Assembly: GCA_021904315.1 (NCBI GenBank)
Contig: CM038912.1
Span: 22,356,949 to 22,420,948, forward strand
Reading direction: 5' to 3'
Origin: Sphagnum magellanicum
Taxonomy: Eukaryota; Streptophyta; Sphagnopsida; Sphagnales; Sphagnaceae
Length of the DNA: 64,000 nt
Below, in pieces: positions 2,052 to 57,600 of the stretch (within the stretch, counting starts at the first letter, position 1; each line of letters begins with the position of its first letter). Made by a program: the position numbers and the translations under genes. The notes under the pieces were generated by a model that did not search any database, had not been told where the DNA came from, and saw only the letters and a program-made list of their open reading frames with translations.

Positions 2052-4350
2052 TCATTGCAACAATTCTATATAAACAACATTGGTCGTCGTCCTGCCATTC
2101 GGGCAAAAAACAAAGACGTCATTCACACACGTAGTTCGTGACAAAGCTACATATAATTGGCCATGGGTGAAGACAGGTTCAGGCAAGAAAATGCCAACGG
2201 TTTTCATGGTGTGACCCTGTGCCTTGTTAATTGTCATAGTGAATGCCAATTACAAGGGGAATTGGCGCTTTTGTAGGGTGAATGGCCACTTAAAACAATT
2301 CGTTGTTGTGGTGATGCGCGGTATGTTGACACCAATGATTTACGCAACGATCAATCTCCGTGCTAAGTGCGAAATGATTAGACGGGTCCCATTACAAAGT
2401 CCTGAGGTCACATCGAGATTTCTTAGTAACATAACAGGGACACCAACTTTGAGGGCCAGGTGATGTGGTGGCATACATGCCAGAGTAATGGTGTTGAAAA
2501 ATTCTGTGCCAATCGCCATAGCCCGGTCATCCCTTGTTTCCACCGAGTCTATTGACAAAAATATGTGCTTTTGCCCAAGCACAACCTCGACAATCTGAGT
2601 GTTGAGAAAGTTCACAACTGTATTTTTTGTTGTCAAAATAGCTCGACCGTCCATGTATCCTTGGTTTGCGTAATTGATTGCTAGGGCCGGGAAAATAGCA
2701 TGGATGAAGGTCTTTAAAGATGGCGCTTGATGGATTTCTGGGTATAAGGCAATCTCGACTCCAATTAAGGGCTTCGCGTCGGCTTCTGGTGGAAAATGAT
2801 CAATGATGGAAGACTCTTGGCCATTGCCGATTCTCTAAAGGTACTCAGCATACGGCTTGGAGAAGGGATTGGCGCGCAATTTCATGTTTTCCGTGAGAGT
2901 CAAGATGCGCATTTGACGCCACAAAACCGAATGCAAAAGGGTTGCAGAAACGAATGTTGCTCGAGAACATCTGGACACCACTGGTGTACATTGCACATTG
3001 TCGAAAATCACCCCCAAAGACAACCACTTTACCGCCAAAAGGCGAATCTGGGTGCCGCATGATGTCGCGCAAAGTCCGGTCTACCACCTCAGCATAGTGT
3101 CGATGTTGTGCTGGAGCTTCATCCTAAACGATCAACTTTGCTTCCCGGAGTAACTCAGCAGAATCGCTTTGCACAGGTATTGAACACATTGAATCCCTAC
3201 CAAAGGCAATTGGGATCTTGAAAATTGAATGTGCGGTTCGTCCACCTTCCAATAGGAGAGCTGCTATGCCAGAAGAGGCAACCCCAATGGTGACATGTCC
3301 GTCTCGTCGAACCAATGCCAATAACACTTTATATATAAAGGTTTTGCCTGACCCACTTGGATCATCTAGGAAAAATACTGCGCCTTCGCCTTGGGCTATT
3401 GTGTTGAACACTGTAGTGATAGTTATTTCCTAACAAATGTTGAGCCGCGGGAGATTTTGGTTGATGTAACCATGGAGTACGTTTCTATCGTAGTCAAGTT
3501 TTGCAGCCAATTGAGGATTAACATGCAACATTTTTACAGGCGGCAAGGTGAACGACATTTTTGGAAAGTCATGCAAGCCTTTGTTCGTCAACGCTAATTT
3601 GGCCTCGAGGAGTAGTAGGGTATTGTTGTAGGCATCGTCGGCAGTGCCTCCATTTGTGATGCGTCGATGCCGCATATCGTGCGACATATCGTCTCGATAT
3701 CTTTCCCATAACACTTTCGGATTCAAAGGAGAGCACAATAGTAAGAGAGTCACAAAGAGATTCCTTAGCCTCTTTGCGTCTTCATCGATACATGCTTCTC
3801 GCATGCACGTGTCCCATTCTGCATCATCCTGTAGTAATCCCAATGCTTTGCAAGCAGCTTGAAATGTCGGATGCTCTATGTTGTCAACAGTCCGGAGATG
3901 TTCGAAAGAGGTCGCGCCCGGTACGACAGTAAGTAGGAGGCAGAGGAAGAAGCGTTCACTAGTAGCGGGATGTACAAAATACATTCGCCCAACAACTTTT
4001 TCTCCTCGCTGTTGAGCTAATCAAACTTTTCCTTGAATTTTCCAAACATGATCAGCAGGGAAGTCCGCATACACCACATTTCGCCCATTTGCATTTTGAG
4101 CGTTATACACAAAGTAGGTGGTCAAGGTGGTTTTTTGGTGGGTAGCACACTCTGCCACAGCGACCAAATCTTCATTTTCATTAAAAATGACGTGCTATCC
4201 TGGCAAATGAACAACTAATTGAGTGACTGGCGGCCATTCCATATATTGGACCGATAATCACCGCTACAACACGATCAAGACCTTTGTAAATGTATTTAAA
4301 AAAGTATTTGACACTCCGAATATTGACGGACATACTTAGGGCCCAGTGTT
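2052..4350 (-). pseudogene. Helitron RepHel-type helicase, broken
   Basis: The protein would provide the PIF1-family helicase used in Helitron rolling-circle transposition. Read from 4350 down, conserved stretches appear in the right order: end of the helitron-like N domain (SVKYFFKYIYKG), WPPVTQLVVHLPG, VVYADFPADHVW, GRMYFVHPATSERFF, GATSFEHLRTVD, Walker A (PSGSGKTFIY at about 3360), Walker B region with [30 protein letters not shown], and motif VI (TINKAQGHTM ... HGQLYVALSR at 2245-2130). Breaks include an in-frame TGA near 4020 and stops near 3431 and 3122 (both TAG, the latter where WDEAP is expected), plus a frameshift near 3000. Not functional. The Rep nuclease part is absent. Confidence 0.92.
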
Positions 4351-4704
4351 TCTCTTGGCAATATTGATGTAGCCAAAGTGACCATCAACCATAGGAAGAT
4401 TTGGCCAAATATAGCAAGCAAAACATAGCAAAGTAAGAAAGTGGAGCATCTTTCCTTTGTTTGGTAGTTTACTAAAATCAAATATAAAAACTTTACAATT
4501 TCTTTTGAATATGAGAGATTGAAAACCAAAATAAATGACTTCATTTTCACAGTCTTAGTTTTTAGTTTAATTTTCTGGTGAGATTTGGCCAGTAAAGAAA
4601 ACCCTCTTAGGACCATGACACACCACCAGCAATAGCAGTGCAATGATAGGTAGAAAGATCCAGCTTGGTTAGCTAGGGAACTAGAACCCAACAGAAAACT
4701 GTTT

Positions 4705-8087: not shown

Positions 8088-11000
8088 ATGGCCCCAAAAT
8101 TCCTGGTCTTGGCCAGAAAGGCGATAGTTGAGGCTTTGGACCTTACATCTGGAAAGAATGAGCAACTCTTGAAGCTCAACAAACGGCAGTGTCAATGTGT
8201 TGCGCAGAAGCTCTCAGAGATTGGAAATTTTTTGAAATATGTGGAGTGTGCAGCCGGTTCTGCTAATCTCCTTGAACGACGTGATGCAACGTTGGGAAAA
8301 GAGCTGTATCGAGTTGTGACGGATGCTTTGTCGCTTATCAAGGAATGTCGTGACGAGCAGTGGCTGAGAGCAGCCATTAGACAACGTAGCGAAAAGAGCT
8401 CGGAGGACTTTGTCGAGATTTGTTGTGAAGTGCAATGGTGCACTTCCGTACTCTGTATTTGTTTACAGAGTGCTATACGTAAGCAGGCTGCCGTTGTAGA
8501 GCCGGAAGCATGGGATGGTAGGCTGAGTGTTCTTGATCACTTCAAACTGGAGGCGGCCGCAAATCAAGATCGAGAGGATTTGAAATCATCTTTGAAGCTC
8601 CTAAGCCAAGGCCATGTTTGTGATGCTAGTTGTGCGAGGTCCAAAGCTGAAAAATGCCTTGCTGCGCAGTTTTTCAAGAGGCTGGATAGTAGGCCGACCG
8701 AATTGGCAGCTGATCGGGGTAGTAGGTCTGCAGAAATATTGCCTTCCTTATTGTGGAAGGTGCATTATCGAGATCTTCCTAGTGTGAGGAAGATAGGGAA
8801 AGGGTCCTTTGGCGAAGTTCAGGAAACCAAATGGCTAGAAGACAAATATGCCAAGAAGGTATTCCCTGGTGCTGACAACAAGAGTTTTAAGCAGGAGTCT
8901 GAGGTTCTGGCTCGCCTCTGTCATCCGAATGTGGTGAGAGTAGTTGGTTGGTCTGAAAGTAGGACAGGTGTGAATAAATCTATCGTCATGGAGCTCATGC
9001 AGGAGGACCTTTTTACGTTTTTGGAAAATCGTCTGGACAACAATGAATTCGAGGGTTCCGCCGATGTTCCGCTATCAATCCTTGCAGCAGTGGATCTTAT
9101 GCTTCAAGTGGCACGGGGATTGAAATACTTGCACAGTAGAACCGTAGCACATCGCGACCTCAAATCCATGAACGTTTTAGTGAAACGTCTTTCAGGCGCC
9201 CCTGAGCTTGAGTATAGCGAGGGATATCTAAATGCGAAGCTCGCCGATTTCGGGTTGTCCAAGACAAAAAACTTGAGCACCAGATACTCCAACCAGACAC
9301 GCGATGTTGGTACTCGGAAATGGATGGCTCCCGAGGTGTTCGAAATCACCAAGGATAAGATTGACAGTGACGCTGTGCAACTGCCTGAAATTGCACACCC
9401 CTTCAAAGCAGACGTGTACAGTTTCGCTCTTGTGTGCTACGAGATCCTGACTGGGGAAAAGCCTTTTGAAACTGAGAAGATGTGTGACTTGTACAAACGA
9501 GTAGTACTTGAGCATGTGCGGCCAAAGCTCCCCAAAACATGCCCGAGAAGGCTGGTGTCCTTGATACGACTGTGTTGGGACCACGATCCTCTTTCCAGGC
9601 CCGATTTCCCCGAAATCTGCAAAGAATTACGATACATCAAAGGTCTTCTTCTCACAGGTACGCTTATTGCTTTCTCCAAAAGCTACTCTGCTCAGTGCTA
9701 CTCATGACAGAGCGCTTCCAAACAAGTCATAAAATAGGGCGCTAACTGCGAACGTGGTAGGTGCTTCCATCTTCAAAGAATCACTTCTGGAGTTTACGTT
9801 GAGCAATATTTTATGTAGTATTTTGTTCTTGTTGGAAATGAAACTTGAAAACTATGCCACCATTCTGGGGCCTTGGAACTTCACTTGGAACTTCAAACCC
9901 AGTGGTGTGGAGGTGAAACTCCTGCCGGCCCTTTAATTTGCCAATGAGCTTGACTTTGAGCTGCCAACGGCTTGTCAGGTCGCGTCTGCTGTTGTTCTTC
10001 AAAAAACAAGAAAAAGAAAACCATGCCACCACCATTAAGACTCCAGAGTGCAGTATCTAGCATGGGGCAAGCAATCTTGTGCCTTGAGAGCCTTGACCAT
10101 ATCTCTCCAGTACATGTCTTTTACAGCCCCCCAAAACCCCGATCCTCCTTCCAGTCAAATCTTGGTGAATGATTTACATGAATCCTTGGTTATTTAAGCT
10201 TAGGTTGTTTGCTGACAATTGTTTACTTGGCTCAATAGGGGCAATCTAATCTGGTTCCCTGTCATTTACCTCACAGATGAAGAAACCCAGGCACTGAAAA
10301 CGGACATTCTTGCTTCGACACTGAAGCCAACTGAGGTACCAAATCTACCAATGTGGCACGCACTGATGCATTTCAAGTATGAGTTGGTTGTTGATCTTTT
10401 CTTGTATTGATACCTATATACATATTGTTCTCGTACAAATAAATAGCTATCATCGTCAATCGTAGCCAGAGTTCAAGTATTTCAGGTCATGCTCACAACA
10501 TGATCACAAGTATAGTGGCCTCAACCTTTTTGACAAGGTGGCATACACAGGATTGGAATGTGGAAGTCGAAGGTCCTTGGGGGGGGCTTGGTGGGGTTTC
10601 TTTTAATGATGGCCTAGCAACAGGCATCAAAGGACTCAAGATCAAGAGCAATACAAGAGTTTTTTTTTCTCTGAGTGTTGAATATGATAAATGTGGCAAA
10701 TCATTTCGCTCCCCTCACCATGGCAATCCTTCTTCTGACCGTGCAAAGGATCTCCAAGAACTTGAGGTGAGTCTCATATGCATCTTGTGATTTAGGCAAG
10801 TAGGTCAAAACATGATTGAAATTGGATTTGGAATTTTTTTTCAATATTTTATGAAAGTCATATCATGTGCATTGTGAATATATTCATAGACTCAATTGAA
10901 AAAAATTAGCATTTTTGGAAAATTAGCAAAATTGCATAATTATTTGTAGAAATAATCATTCTCTCCTCAACAAATGAATAATGATTTATATGTAGGTTCT

Positions 11001-11466
11001 AAGTTTTATATATGCCCATTGCCATTTGTGTAGATAAAATTCAACTACCCTAATGAGTATCTTCAACAAATTATGGGAGTTTTGGGTAAAACACATGGTT
11101 ACAAGGTAGGAAACCGTCTGGTGACATGTGTCACTTCCATCACGTTCAAGACCAACATCAAAACCTATGGCCCCTATGGCAACCCTAAAACTGGAGATCA
11201 AAACTTCAAAAGTATCAGTGGAAAGATCTTGGGTTTTTGGGGACGCTCAGGTCAGGTTCTTGATCGACTTGGAGTCTTCGTAAGTGACACAACTTGATCA
11301 CCATTATCTAACAACGTATAGTATGGGCAAGTATTTTTAGTTGAAATTATGGTATAAATCACTAACTTTTGAATGGAACTTCTCTCATCAGGGCCCTTCA
11401 GCAACAAAATACAATAATTATATCTTCATTTGGAAGATGGAAAAGTTAAAGATTAGCTCACCTTAA
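8088..11466 (+). CDS. Protein kinase with C-terminal jacalin-like lectin domain
   Basis: Five-exon model: 8088-9657, 10277-10335, 10470-10766, 11034-11279, 11392-11466, in phase throughout, 748 residues. The ATG at 8088 (MAPKFLVLARKAIVEAL) is preferred over an upstream in-frame GTG. Residues 1-220 are a helical region with no clear motif, in the position of the HeLo/RPW8-like bundle of plant MLKL-type kinases. The kinase domain follows: glycine loop GKGSFGEV (237), lysine near 256, HRDLKSMN (355), DFG (387), MAPE, all intact, so activity is expected. Exons 3-4 code for a jacalin-related lectin fold: GPWGGLGG, VEYD, FNYPNEYL, SITFKTN, TYGPYG, GFWGRSG, LDRLGVF. It may sense mannose-type or other glycans and signal by phosphorylation (inference). 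No signal peptide or membrane span is seen, so it is probably cytosolic. The exon 2-3 junction is the least certain; an alternative end at 11297 skips the last intron. Confidence 0.82.
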
Positions 11467-16828: not shown

Positions 16829-19557
16829 TTGATGCAGGAATTTGTCCTACTTCCTTCAATCATGGGAAGGGTTCCAAAGTCCCATTCCATTCATGTCCAA
16901 AACCCCACCAAGTCCCCTTTCTCAAACAAAGACTTGGTGTGGACATCTGGAATACGCCATGGAAGGCAAAATAAAGTGACCATTCAATTTGCTTATGTTC
17001 CATATGCTTGCGTCGCGGAATTCTTGGAAGGTGAACGAGGGGATACAAGCACCCCTATGGAATGGAGTGTTTACAAAAACTTTCCAAGCCAAACGGATGT
17101 CAAGCAACCAACTATCAAAAACCACCTCGGGCATACATGGTAAACATTTATGGCATTAACCTTTTTAATTTCTTTAATTCATATACCAAAGATGTAATCA
17201 TTTACATTTTGAAAGTTTTTTGGTTTAGGTATCAATGCGGATATGGACCAGAGGACTATCTAGAAAATTCAACCCACACTTGATCTATTAAACGAGGATG
17301 CCTAGCGTCATTCTCAATCAAACGTCTATACACACGACCTGATGTGGCTGAGATCACAATTTATCATAAGGCCCATACACGAATTGATGGGTCATTCGCA
17401 CATGGTGAGCATGACCCAGAGTCCATTTCTCGTATGTCTTGTTATGCTCCACGCATGTCACAAGCATTAAAAGACCACATATGGGCCCAACTAAGCTTAG
17501 GTTATACGCCCAAACAAATATATGACAAGCATAAAGCAATTTGGTGGGAACGTGTGAATGTGGGTCAAAGCATGACACGAGATGATTTCATTCGGCTTCA
17601 AGACATTGCATATTTGGATCAGAAACATAAGAAAGGGAGTTGGCATTTACACATTAACCCTGTAATTTCAATTCGGTCTTGGGCTCTCCAACATCCAGAA
17701 GATGTGTTCTTTTTCCAAAATGTTGGTGAAATGAACGGAACTCAAGTCCCATTCACCATAGGTATTCAAACACTAACTCAATGTGAGTCCATGCTATCAT
17801 ATGGTCACAATGGTGCCATTTCTATGGATGCAACATTTGGCACAAATGACATGAAATTCCATCTATTCACTTTGATGGGATTTGATGATCATCGCACGGG
17901 TGTCCCTTTAGCCTGGATCATTACAAGTAGGCAAACAGTGCAAGATTTGATCGAATGGTTGAAACTATTAAAAGAGAAGATGTTATCACACATGCCGCAT
18001 TGGAAACCATCATGTTTTCTCGTTGATGATGCACCTCAAGAATTGAAGGCATTATGGTTAGTTCTATATCTAGTATCGACTTTGTGTTTATTTCTTAAAT
18101 GTTTTTTAATATCTTTCATAAAATTCTTGATTACTTCAAATGCATTTTATGTTGTACTAACCCCATCCACTCATGGAGATTTTATTGCATATGTGTTCTT
18201 ATTAGGGTCGTATGGGGTATGGACAAGGTTCCCATCTACCTTTGTTGTTGGCATGTTCTCAAAGCATGGCGCCTACGTGGTATTGAAAAAATCAAAGATG
18301 TGGAAGTGCGGGGTGGAATCCTCCAAGACCTTCATGATGTGATGTACATGTCCATCAATCATGGAGAAACAATTGATGACTTCAAAGAGCGTGGGAGGGT
18401 TGCTGTGAGAGAAAGCCTTCATAAACATAGGCCTGGTGATGCGTGGACAAACTATTTCTGGACTTATTACCATCAATTTGGTAAGTGATAATATTTATTA
18501 TGGTTCAACATTCAAAATTTATTTTGTATAATGTTATTCATCCTTATGTATTGTGTTTATGTTTGTAGAATTATGGATGGTGGGTGTTCAAAGAGTGCCC
18601 CATTCGAACCAAGACACCTAAGCAAACATTGAATCATATCATGGTGCATTGAAACGTTGGCTTGCTCTTGACATAAAAGGCCTTAGAGGGCGTAGGATTG
18701 ACTGGTTGGTGTGGTGATTAACAACAACCGTTGCACGCCACTACATGCACACATTGGAAATGAAAAAAAGGGGTTTCATAAAAAACAAGGTTGTGGAGGC
18801 CATTATTACACGAAGTGTGGAAAAGGCAACCCTTATTCCACTCAGCCACATGTACCAACCAACCTTTGAGAGTGATGGAGCTTGGGCCGTACGGAGCCAA
18901 CGCCTTCCCAATGTTATTTACACGGTGAAATTCCCATTCACCAAAATGTTTTGTTGCACATGCAAATGGGTATTGCGAGGGAACATGTGTAAACACCAAA
19001 TTAAAGTCATTCTCACATGCACAGACATTTCTCAAGAGGATATCATTCATTACTGTGGAACATGGTATGGATCACATCGTGGAGGGTTGTGTCACATGTT
19101 TGCAGACCCGTAACATATTCCAGATGATATGGAGTCCAATGATGATGACAAAGATGATCATCTTGAAGGTGACGATGGGATCATGAAATTTGATGGGCTC
19201 ATGAACATGGAGCAAAATGATCTCCCTATGGGTGCCATTGTAGGGTCTAATGAGACAATAAATTCATCAACCCCAATGGAAAGGGCTCTTGCACAATTAG
19301 TCACTACAATGCAAGAGATCACAAATGAATGTAAAGAAGGCGATGTGACACTTTGTGAACATGCCACCTCACACATGAGAGTATTGGCATGTAATATTCG
19401 TAACATACGCCTCACAAAAGCAAATGCGATTTCACACCCAGGATTGGTGTTACGTCGTGTAGAAGATGGATTGTGAAATAGTGTCAAACGCCTCAAAGAT
19501 TGGCATGAAACAATGCTCAATCACACAAATATACGTACTAAACGATGTCATGAATAA
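16829..19557 (+). pseudogene. MULE transposase, five nonsense codons
   Basis: Exons 16829-17139, 17229-18056, 18206-18480 and about 18569-19557, all joined in phase, coding for a DDE transposase of the MULE superfamily. Visible parts: N-terminal region with ARHG-like HGRQNKVTIQFAYVPY and a Cys/His stretch; MSQALKDHIWAQLSLGYT; the catalytic core SMDATFGTNDMKFH and CFLVDDAPQELKALW; a WHVLKAW segment; a SWIM zinc finger CTCKWVLRGNMCKH (about 18957); an acidic C-terminus. In-frame stops: 17281 TGA, 18619 TAA, 18715 TGA, 19111 TAA, 19474 TGA. Each is one C-to-T step from CGA or CAA, and the sequence resumes in frame each time. The gene looks recently silenced by deamination rather than old. Confidence 0.9.
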
Positions 19558-23629: not shown

Positions 23630-25170
23630 AGAGACGCTCCGGAGCTTGTTGTGTTGCAGGGTTTAGTTGCAGCAAGCTCCGGAGCTGGACAAGCTCCGAA
23701 GTTTGTTGTGTTGCAACATCAAGCTCTCACGCTCCGGAGCTTGTTGCTGCAACGCAGCAAGCCAGAGCTAGAGAAGCTCCAGAGCTTGCTACGTTGCAGC
23801 AGCAAGCAAGTTTTGGAGCTTGCTATGTTGCAGCAGCAAGCTCCGGAGCCGGAGATCCTCCGGAGCTTGTTGCGTTGCAACAACAAATAAGCTCCGGAGC
23901 TTCTGAAGAAGCTCCGGAGAAGCTCCGGAGCTTGTTGCGTTGCAGCAGCAAGCAAATTAGCTCCGGAGTCGGAGATCCTCCGGAGCTTGTTGCGTTGCAG
24001 CAGCAAGCAAACTAGCTCCAGAGCCGGAGATCCTCCGGAGCTTGCTGCGTTGTAGCAGCAAGCAAGCTCCGAGCTTCCGAAGCTTGTTGCGTTCCAGCAA
24101 CAAGCAAGCTCTGGAGCTCGCGTTGCAACGCAAGCTCCGAAGCTATCCGGAGCTCGGAGCTTGCTGGCCGAGCAATAGGCTCCGGAGGTCTCCGGAGCTC
24201 GAAGCTTTCTAAGGATGTTTAGATGAGTAGAAAGGTTTCAAACTAATTGTGCAGAACACTCTTGTAATGAAATTTAGATATGTTCAAAAGAATTGAGGAC
24301 ATTATACTTACAAATCAAGTCAACCTGAAAGAAATGAGAACTTCGGAGGAAATGCAAGCTCCGAGCAGCAAGCTTCGGAGCTCGGAGCTTGGTTGCTGCA
24401 AGCTCAGAGCTTGGAGCTTGCTTGCTGCGAACTCGGAGCTTGCTGCGAGCTCAGAGTTTGTTACAACAAGCTCCGAGCAGCAAGCTCCGGAGCTCGGAGC
24501 TTGCTTGCTGCGAGCTCGAAGCTTGCTACAGCAAGCTCCGGAGCTCGAAGCTTGCTTGTTACAAGCTCGGAGCTCGAAGCTTGCTTACTCTGAGCTCGAA
24601 GCTTACTTGCTGCGAGCTCGGAGCTTGCTTGCTACAAGCTCGGAGCTCGAAGCTTGCTTGCTGCAAGCTCGGAGCTCGGAGCTTGCTGCAACAAGCTCCA
24701 AGCAGCAAGCTTCGGACCTATCCGGAGCTCGGCAAGCTCCGGAGCTCGGAATTTGCTTGCTGCAACAAGCTCCAAGCAGCAAGCTCCGGACCTATCCGGA
24801 GCTCGGCAAGCTCCGGAGCTCGGAATTTGCTTGCTGCAAGCTCCGGACCTATCCGGAGCTCGGCAAGCTCCGGAGCTCGGAACTTGCTTGCTGCAAGCTC
24901 CGGACCTATCCGGAGCTCGGCAAGCTCCGGAGCTCGGAACTTGCTTGCTGCAAGCTCCGGACCTATCCGGAGCTCGGCAAGCTCTAGAGCTCTCCGGGGC
25001 TCGGAGCTTGCTGCATGAAAGAAATGCAAGCTCCGAAGAAGCTCCAAAGCTCCGGAGCTTGCGTTGTAGCAAGCTCCGGAGCTCTCGGGAGCTCTGAGCT
25101 TGTGTTGCAGCAAGCTCCGGAGCTCTCCGGAGCTCGGAGCTTGCTGCAACAAGCTTTGAGTAGCAAGCTC
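23630..25170. repeat. AGCTCCGGAGCT palindrome array
   Basis: About 1.5 kb built almost only from AGCTCCGGAGCT, GAGCTCGGAGCTTG, and TTGCTGCAAC/GCAGCAAG words. It is GC-rich inside an AT-rich element. From 24779 a 57-bp unit repeats head to tail (starts at 24779, 24836, 24893, 24950). Because unit lengths tend to be multiples of three and words are self-complementary, long open frames appear on both strands; these are not genes. The whole stretch could fold into many hairpins, in DNA or RNA. Confidence 0.95.
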
Positions 25171-25179
25171 CACGGCACA

Positions 25180-25222
25180 AAGAAGAAGAAGAAGGCGATG
25201 CTATCGCCTTCTTCTTCTTCTT
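25180..25222. repeat. Perfect 20-bp hairpin
   Basis: AAGAAGAAG-type left arm ending GGCGAT (25180-25199), three loop bases GCT, and the exact reverse complement starting ATCGCC (25203-25222). It closes the palindrome array on its right side. Confidence 0.95.
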
Positions 25223-25424
25223 CTTTTCTTGCAACACAAAGAAGAAGCAACACAAAGATAAATGCTTACCTAGGTCCTGCGTGGGTCCAGCTGCAGTCGC
25301 TCCAAGCTCCAAGCTCGTTCAAGCTCGCTCCCGCTCCAAGCCGGCTCCAAGCTCCAAGCTCGCTCCTGCTCAACATCTCTGGAACCAGGAGCTCTAGCGA
25401 TGGAGGGAGGGGGAGGGGTTAGTA

Positions 25425-54699: not shown

Positions 54700-57600
54700 C
54701 TAACCATGAGCATTCCTTATGTCTTGCCATATCCATTCAGTAGGTTCCCCATTGTGATGATGAGTAACTTGGGCATCATCCAAAATTCTTTCAATAGAAT
54801 GCCAAGACCTGGTGCTCGTAATCCCAGAGGCCTTGTACCTCTTGAAGGTTCCACGCACCCGCCCATAAACTTCCAACATGCCCAAGCACACCATACCCAC
54901 AAAGTAATCTTGTTGCATGAGTGGCCCTACTGCAATGGCTTTCCTCTTGCTTTCTTCTTCTACCTGAGAATCAGTTGTAAATGTTGGTGTAGACACACTC
55001 CTCACTACTGCCATGGAGAAGGACCTGTCACTGCTGTTCCTAACTATCACCACATCCCCAACTTCTGGATAAGGAGGGCAGCGGCCAGGCATCCCTAGCT
55101 GAAACAAATGGTCACGCGGGGAAACATCCTCTAACTCATAAGTTAAAAGAATCCCATTATTCCGCCCTACCAAAGGCATCAGAATGAATTTGTGCATCAA
55201 AAGGTGAGCTGGTTTGATGTCATTCCTAGGCCACTGTTGTGGATGTGGTTGTAAAACAACCATGCCAGTACAGCTGTGTTGGAGAGCCACAGAAGATGAT
55301 GATGCTGATGTTGCCGTATTGTAGTACTTGCCTTGGAAAAAAACTCTCCTGTCACCATAGAATTCATGGATGAAAAATTGGGTGATTTTGGCCTTCCATG
55401 TCCACATGTGCCCTTCGTATGGCTCATCAGGCTCAACAACCACTGAATCACCAACACAAAATTCCTTTCCATGCCTCATCCAAAATGAGAATCCTTGAAC
55501 TGAAGTCTGAAAAAGTTGAGAATTTTCAGTGGTCATGATCCCGATGGTGCTCCAAAAACATTGCAAGTACGAGATTGTGTCTTCTAAGATTGCTGCTTTG
55601 ATGCCGATCTTCCTACCCACAATTATGCCCTTCTGTAGTAAAATTTGCTTACATGAGCATGTTGGTAACCACTGCACCAATTTGGAAATTGCTTGAGCTA
55701 TTTCCTGAGAAGGCACAACCACCACACATTCTTCATGCCACTGCTCACAAACTGTCAAATCTTGGTCCATTACACGACGGACATCTGTAGGCAATTGAAG
55801 ATATTTGTGAACCTCTTTCAAAGCTCTTCCACCCAGGAATAGACCGTCATTGTCTAGTTGCATAGCTCTATGGATCTTTGTGAAAATTTGCCTAGCATAG
55901 TAGCTGGTGTAAGTGACTTCACTTGTCTTTTGATTGGATGAAATGTTCACAACTCTGGAAATTTCCCTTTCAAAAGGGTAACACCAAAAAATATCGTGGA
56001 AACCATGCCTCTCCACATCATCTACAAGTTCTCCACTCCCTGTGTGCCCGGACACAAAGTTCCATGGATTATATTCCTGCAATATGCTTTTGCAGTGACA
56101 GAGCTCATAATAAAAACACACTCTATGGACTAGTTTCACAAAATGAAATATCAATGGTCTTACCAAGGCTTTAATTTTCAATTTTGTAATGTAGCTAAGC
56201 TATCAATTAGCCATAAGATGACTAAATCGAATCTAGCTGCTACATGTGAGAAATAAAGTTTTTTTTTTTTTTTCAATTTTTTTTTTTTGGTTATTTTCTA
56301 CCTAATTGAAACTTAGTACAAAAATTTTGCAATCTTTCAAAAAGACTTATATGAGATTTGGCAACTAGAAAACTTGCAAAACATCTTGCCATCATTTTCA
56401 AAAGAAATGTTGTCACCTTAACTCTAGATAGCCCAAAAAAAATAGCCCTAGAATGAATACTTGCAACATGCTCCAACGGAGATGAGTTGGGCCCAACACT
56501 TTCCTCCAAACGCACACGCCATGCTGCCAACAATTCCTGAGCATTCTGCCTGCTTTGAAAAGTCCAGCCATAGTTTCGGCTCTGGGTGTAAAATAGCCTT
56601 CCTACCTCAGTGAGCACTACACCTATCCCACCCAAAATGGAGTCCAAGCCCAAATCTAAATGATCTAGGACATGTGGTAAGCACCACATAACAAAGATTT
56701 GGTACTCTTCGGCCTTATAAAATCCTAGAGATTCTATACTCCTAGGCCACCTTGCTCCAAGTGTGGCCGGACTCAATTTTTTCACAGTTTGTAACACACC
56801 ATCCAAATCTTTTATCTTCCCATTTCCTGTAGCATATTTGACCAACATGTGGACATATTTCTTAAAGACACACAATGCTAAAGTGTGCATCACATCATAT
56901 GTGAGGTCATGAGAAATGTCAAAACCATACAAGTTATACAACCTCCAAAGACATGATTGGCCGGAAATGCCCGCTTCACGACCAACCTCATCCCTTTCCT
57001 TGCCAATTGGAAGTTACTACCACTACTTCAATGCAAATGCCATGTCTTCTACACATCGCATGGCAAATGGATGCCTCCTATGTTTTCTATTGTCATGGTA
57101 TTCCACCAAACCCTTATTGTCGGATCGAGCACGCCATCTTGATGTAACATAGTGACGTCGACACCCAAAATACCCCCCACTTTTCACTACCCCCACTTTA
57201 CATTGGGTAGGATGATCACCAGTCCATACCATCACTATGGCCCGCAAAGTAGCCAAACCGGAAGGCAAATCATCAAACATGCATTCACTAATTGATTCTA
57301 TAGGATATGCATACCGGACCGGGAATCCATCTACAAACACCTTTTCTAAGTCTATCATGAGAGGTTTTAAAAATGCTATCAAAACGTGGGGGTCGGCTTG
57401 TTTGATTATTTTTTCTGAACTTGATGGAATGAACATAATAGGAATAGGATCTAATGTGTTTTCTCTCCCACAATTTAGTATGCTCAAATCCACTGTCTAA
57501 TAATTCTTCAAACTTGTCTTTGCAGAAGAAAATCCATCCCAATGAAACATCAACCCAAAATTCCGCGGATCACCCTACAAATGCACACAAAGTATATTAA

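Follow-up and report, generated by a model that had tools for sequence, protein, structure and literature searches.

The gene at positions 8088–11466 (plus strand) of the 64,000-nucleotide stretch of Sphagnum magellanicum DNA analyzed here (the window) very probably encodes a kinase and a jacalin lectin in a single chain, and it belongs to a family that has expanded across the genome and includes decayed copies. We tentatively propose that this gene (the target) specifies an immune sensor kinase outside the NLR class, combining an MLKL/RPW8-like bundle, an intact kinase and a jacalin domain, and we see in it a possible example of an immune sensor type that has been little described. An immune sensor role appears to be the likeliest function, albeit an unproven one.

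A sequence-only reading of this DNA had proposed five exons (8088–9657, 10277–10335, 10470–10766, 11034–11279 and 11392–11466), and the model is sound in that all introns are GT-AG and the 748-residue product contains no internal stop. The start of exon 3, however, is likelier to be at 10551 than at 10470. Between 10470 and 10551, the target differs from its two nearest copies at 2 of 82 and 0 of 80 aligned bases, and in the 14 bases just after this stretch, 7 differ in both copies. Further, the counterpart of 10470–10550 in distant copies contains stops and is followed by an AG acceptor abutting the lectin core. Because of this intron-like divergence from the near copies and the stops in the distant ones, we read 10470–10550 as probably the end of intron 2. 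Exon 3 most likely begins at 10551, with an in-phase acceptor (CAG/GAT at 10550/10551), and the protein then has 721 residues, not 748. The Pfam jacalin match rises from 100.4 bits for the 748-residue model to 104.2 bits for the tail of the 721-residue model (PF01419 cut-off, 22 bits). In the model as now predicted, exon 1 (8088–9657) holds the start codon, the N-terminal helical region (residues 1–230, 8088–8777) and the whole kinase domain (residues ∼231–517, 8778–9638), ending in a phase 1 donor (CACAG/GTACGC); exon 2 (10277–10335) is a 59-base linker; exon 3 (10551–10766) and exon 4 (11034–11279) encode the first and second halves of the jacalin domain, respectively; and exon 5 (11392–11466) encodes the final 24 residues and the stop. 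Where the exon borders are readable in the copies, their phase is conserved.

As previously claimed, the kinase is intact: GKGSFGEV, lysine 257, glutamate 270, HRDLKSMN (HRD at residue 355), DFG (387) and APE (414) are all in the target. An HMM search of the 748-residue protein, proposed earlier as a check, returned a Pfam kinase domain at residues 233–514 (E 9.2e-47) together with a jacalin domain at residues 578–723 (E 1.4e-28). Among PDB sequences, the only set compared, the two best matches of the target kinase were 6lba and 6ka4, followed by roco4, MAP3K9 and B-Raf. The PDB titles of the first two are "Protein kinase family protein" and "F22L4.1 protein"; we take them to be the plant MLKLs AtMLKL2 and AtMLKL3. 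Similarly, a 22-row profile of the bundle plus kinase matched 6lba (1e-80) and 6ka4 (1e-73) best, with the alignment running from about residue 25, in the N-terminal region, through the end of the kinase. Like the target, these two proteins have an N-terminal region followed by a kinase, and the family profile spans both parts, whereas neither is among the 38 PDB sequences that matched the target's lectin tail. Because K257, E270, HRD, DFG and APE are present, we regard the target as a relative of MLKL rather than an MLKL in the strict sense; its kinase keeps the catalytic residues, unlike the Arabidopsis MLKLs, which are described as pseudokinases in the portion of the source available (PMC10951266).

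For the state of the kinase across the family, 34 of 39 loci (numbered L) were aligned, after the removal of five whose first exon runs over more than one frame (L014, L018, L019, L022 and L038). Counted by eye, HRD is kept in 31 of the 34 copies (HGD in L012 and L053; HLD in L051) and DFG in 30 (the exceptions being L012, L031, L032 and L053, of which the frame of L032 stops earlier). The glycine loop is changed in L013, L015, L031, L033, L036, L046 and L053, and L021 has a gap at the position of the catalytic lysine.

The region ahead of the kinase had been likened to the HeLo/RPW8-like part of plant MLKLs. The likeness stands as a weak, convergent similarity of the family; it fails for the target's own sequence, which matches none of DUF1221, RPW8 and MLKL_N. 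With a 29-row profile of the N-terminal region (the 34-row set minus five near-copies), the best PDB match was again 6lba, at the top of 177,635 sequences (E 0.0064; best single stretch, E 0.041), and the runner-up had an E value of 1.2. At E values up to 1, DUF1221 was matched by 10 of 29 members, DUF7792 by 8, RPW8 by 3 and MLKL_N by 2, all N-terminal matches shown for the members being under the Pfam cut-offs. The best of those to DUF1221, a name also given to the HeLo bundle found in Arabidopsis MLKLs according to the part of the source available (PMC10951266), reached E 5.5e-5 and 23.2 bits compared with a cut-off of 25. At E values up to 0.1, six of a ten-member set matched DUF1221, RPW8 or MLKL_N; of nine of these members also searched with their sequences reversed, six matched these three families forward and none in reverse. 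The sole Pfam match of the target N terminus is to DUF7792 (E 0.0022, under the cut-off). Single matches near this value, including that of the target, weigh little because the reversed controls score alike (one sequence hit an unrelated domain at 0.0022 and another at 0.01). Single-sequence structure predictions were poor, with a pLDDT of 39.6 for exon 1 (523 residues) and 39.8 for residues 1–205. As a guide to a possible signal peptide or membrane span, we computed hydropathy, which peaks within this region at residues 108–126 (19-residue mean of 1.66). On this evidence, residues ∼1–230 probably form a HeLo-like bundle, a fold that is supported, not proven.

The claim of a complete lectin domain was largely borne out, as the Pfam jacalin match is near-complete (profile positions 2–135 of 136). 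The target lectin has both a GPWGG loop, encoded by exon 3, and a GxxxD loop (GQVLD), encoded by exon 4. We take GxxxD to be the sugar loop of jacalin-related lectins; it is present in six of nine sampled exon 4 sequences, including the target, and absent from three. The tail may thus far be called a putative sugar binder. Exon 4 is doubled in L044 and L055 on contig 10, where a partial exon precedes the full one. Separately, contig 15 carries alike stretches (L001–L005, also L007 and L008) with at least two jacalin repeats each. Four of these jacalin-repeat places lie inside 0.6 Mb and a fifth 3.3 Mb further on, none behind a listed N-terminal match, and the top match at each place crosses one TAG.

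The lectin is also entered by a 96-residue frame that starts at an in-frame ATG at 10500, as might be expected if the locus held two adjoining genes, namely a kinase gene transcribed no further than exon 1 and, downstream of it, an independent jacalin gene. The genome-wide pattern, drawn from 438,994,042 bases in 31 contigs with the window's own contig included, speaks against this arrangement. Residues 1–233 gave 120 listed matches, two of which continue others, leaving at least 118. At least 40 of these are followed on the same strand by a jacalin match no more than 8 kb away, and among the matches listed, none is preceded by one on that strand within 8 kb and none has one on the opposite strand. 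The layout is no isolated case, as N-terminal and lectin parts adjoin at these at least 40 places in constant order and strand. At 25 of the 40 places, target included, we read the intervening kinase exon (some more are in split frames), and we read the lectin exons of twelve copies besides those of the target. Moreover, a possible GT splice donor is found at the kinase end in all 28 of the 34 aligned copies in which that end is readable in one frame (GGTA or GGTG in 25 by script, two of them one codon further on; GGTT in 3 by eye), the small in-phase linker exon has counterparts in L040 and L042 that end in a phase 0 GT donor, and more distant copies have lectin-frame stops around the counterpart of the ATG at 10500. 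Two adjoining genes are therefore very unlikely. Because copies without a jacalin match share the kinase-end donor, they too may run on into further exons.

Among the matches listed, a jacalin match lies behind 24 of the 26 closest copies (identity of at least 47%). The N-terminal matches are often clustered, for example on contigs 3, 10 and 18, and several family copies are broken: L039 and L041, two of the three copies nearest to the target, have a broken lectin, and so has an upstream copy just beyond the window, whose start is 13.5 kb from that of the target. On contig 17 (17852574–17854991, minus strand), two N-terminal matches fall in one 1199-codon open frame, perhaps a single tandem bundle-kinase protein.

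We next considered the copies that have no tail. In the 34-sequence kinase-exon tree, which has several long branches and no outgroup, jacalin-bearing rows form two groups, one of which has as its sister the tailless rows of contigs 5, 9 and 17. The tree needs three changes between tail and no tail, which may stand for one gain with two losses or for more than one gain, so a single origin of the tail is possible but not required. A profile search of the downstream DNA of eight tailless copies (L047–L054) found no jacalin exon, and the same profile does find jacalin in L001–L008 and L046; L014 and L033, searched in part, also gave no jacalin exon. Behind the tailless kinases, L053 has a 498-codon open frame (2908–4401, plus strand) that runs to the end of the sequence examined, and L054 has one of 463 codons (minus strand). 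Neither long frame matched a Pfam family above cut-off, and they could be other tails or separate genes. We also considered whether the family runs into NLRs and found no support for this: a Pfam scan found no NB-ARC in the target protein, and among the matches listed, no NB-ARC match comes closer than 54.9 kb to a member. That comparison took in 109 of the 118 N-terminal and 111 of the 125 NB-ARC matches (125 of 380 candidates having been scored), the others being on contigs without a partner.

If the bundle-kinase alone does the work, the lectin tail could be a decaying passenger under little selection, and the divergence between copies bears on this. Between the target and L011+L040, introns differ by 3.5%, the kinase exon by 6.6% and the jacalin exons by 12.3% (Fisher test, jacalin above intron, 5e-10; kinase above intron, 4e-4), with dN/dS values, given here as point estimates with no significance figure, of 1.99 over 149 lectin codons and 1.15 over the kinase exon. 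Compared with L010+L039, in which the lectin is broken and poorly aligned, introns differ by 5.0%, the kinase exon by 6.0% (p 0.33; dN/dS 1.47, no significance figure) and the jacalin exons by 23.9%. In four further pairs, for which the intron and exon limits are approximate (and the first intron stretch of the contig 10 pairs includes the linker exon), jacalin shows no excess over intron in three (p 0.91, 0.46 and 0.58) and lies above intron in the fourth (p 0.0095), where divergence is patchy; in the contig 3 pair, the kinase exon is less divergent than the introns (3.1% versus 5.7%). Diversifying selection as the driver of all lectin tails is therefore not borne out, as jacalin exceeds introns in only three of the six pairs, of which one is broken and one patchy. 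The lectin dS of 0.076 is above the intron divergence, which suggests exchange between copies, and such exchange would be a good alternative to selection. Judged from these comparisons, fast recent change is seen around the target and is no rule of the family.

The intron-like jacalin divergence in three of six pairs, the broken lectins of L039 and L041 and the ten copies searched that have no lectin exon in the DNA examined are all as a passenger tail would have it. Against this, the target lectin is near-complete with both loops, the tail recurs behind nearly all of the closest copies, and exon 4 gave dN/dS values of 0.41–0.55 between the target and four more distant copies (2.09 against the broken L041). 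We consequently judge a passenger tail to be quite improbable. The kinase exon gave values of 0.42–0.65 between the target and five more distant copies.

In the immune sensor reading that we favor, the target would be a three-part protein, probably cytosolic, whose lectin tail would detect a glycan from a microbe or a damaged wall or, alternatively, would act as bait for a microbial protein. Binding of a ligand to the tail would release or cluster the kinase, the activity of which is predicted from its retained residues, and the kinase would then phosphorylate itself, the brace region or partners. Phosphorylation, in turn, could free the bundle to form oligomers at membranes, with defense or cell death as the presumed output. 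The immune-type reading is based on the clusters, the decayed copies and the MLKL/RPW8-like N terminus of the family, together with the raised jacalin divergence from L011+L040 and the precedents of wheat Pm13 and of published jacalin fusions. Jacalin lectins and plant kinases have many diverse roles, and the evidence for a bundle is weak for the target's own sequence, so that the protein might instead be a lectin-tailed kinase that signals in development, symbiosis or wall sensing and plays no part in cell death. Clustering, decay and the family's N terminus look immune-type, however, and we hold this signaling role to be somewhat unlikely. Extended to the family, the immune sensor reading would make it a large peat moss class of stand-alone immune sensor kinases, each with a detector tail (jacalin or others), an active-kinase switch and a HeLo-like killer bundle in one chain without NB-ARC or LRR. 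Such a class would do in a single protein what sensor and helper NLRs do as a pair, and branches of the family would have gained, lost or swapped tails; we offer this wider proposal as a speculative one that is rather unlikely to hold in full.

To place the target among known systems, we compared it with published proteins. Its kinase had been set apart from MLKL-type pseudokinases, a contrast that holds against the Arabidopsis MLKLs but not against wheat Pm13, a powdery mildew resistance protein that joins an MLKL_NTD to a kinase complete in its key residues, according to the portion of the report available (PMC10951266). Pm13 is like the target in its key-residue-complete kinase and perhaps in its MLKL-type bundle, a likeness that is weak in the target (MLKL_N was matched by 2 of 29 family members, the target not among them). 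Its authors assign the Pm13 kinase to RLK/Pelle DLSV, whereas the target is closest in the PDB to plant MLKL, and the available part of their text does not mention jacalin (PMC10951266). Among plant disease-resistance proteins, kinase fusions are a class recognized recently, and the cloned ones listed in the same part of that source come from wheat, barley and relatives (PMC10951266).

The three-part layout had also been called unusual. This does not apply to the fusion of kinase and jacalin as such, because kinase domains are reported in 6.9% of Liliopsida jacalin proteins, and the monocot PKc-JRL proteins, like the target, carry kinase and jacalin in one protein (PMC5536079). They are proteins of grasses, not moss, however, and the accessible part of that source describes no N-terminal MLKL-type bundle in them (PMC5536079). 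What stands is the combination: in the literature searched, which covered few subscription journals, we found neither bundle, kinase and jacalin together nor a moss family of this kind. MLKL-type proteins in moss are probably not new as such, because the available part of a review describes MLKL-like proteins as conserved across seed plants (PMC9950082), and a survey of non-flowering plants with Sphagnum fallax in its material tallied NLR-associated proteins, the MLKL class included, in all species surveyed (PMC11218826, seen in part). The part of the survey text available names Sphagnum for NLRs with integrated domains and leaves jacalin unmentioned (PMC11218826). A lectin survey that includes Sphagnum fallax may list kinase-jacalin proteins in its supplement, judging from the part of the article available (PMC6362431). 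In wheat, NLRs with an integrated jacalin are discussed, in the accessible portion of the source, as carrying a possible sensor or bait domain (PMC7422411); the target differs from these in lacking NB-ARC and from lectin receptor-like kinases in having the lectin after the kinase, not ahead of it. A moss family at ∼40 places would suggest that tailed bundle-kinase sensors are much older or of repeated origin, and the intact and broken copies form a ready-made series in which the sensing, switching and killing parts could be told apart.

Elsewhere in the window, inspection by eye revealed frames resembling transposable-element remains at 17344–18342 and 54700–56941, and a short repeated unit at 24280–25312 that makes overlapping open frames on both strands.
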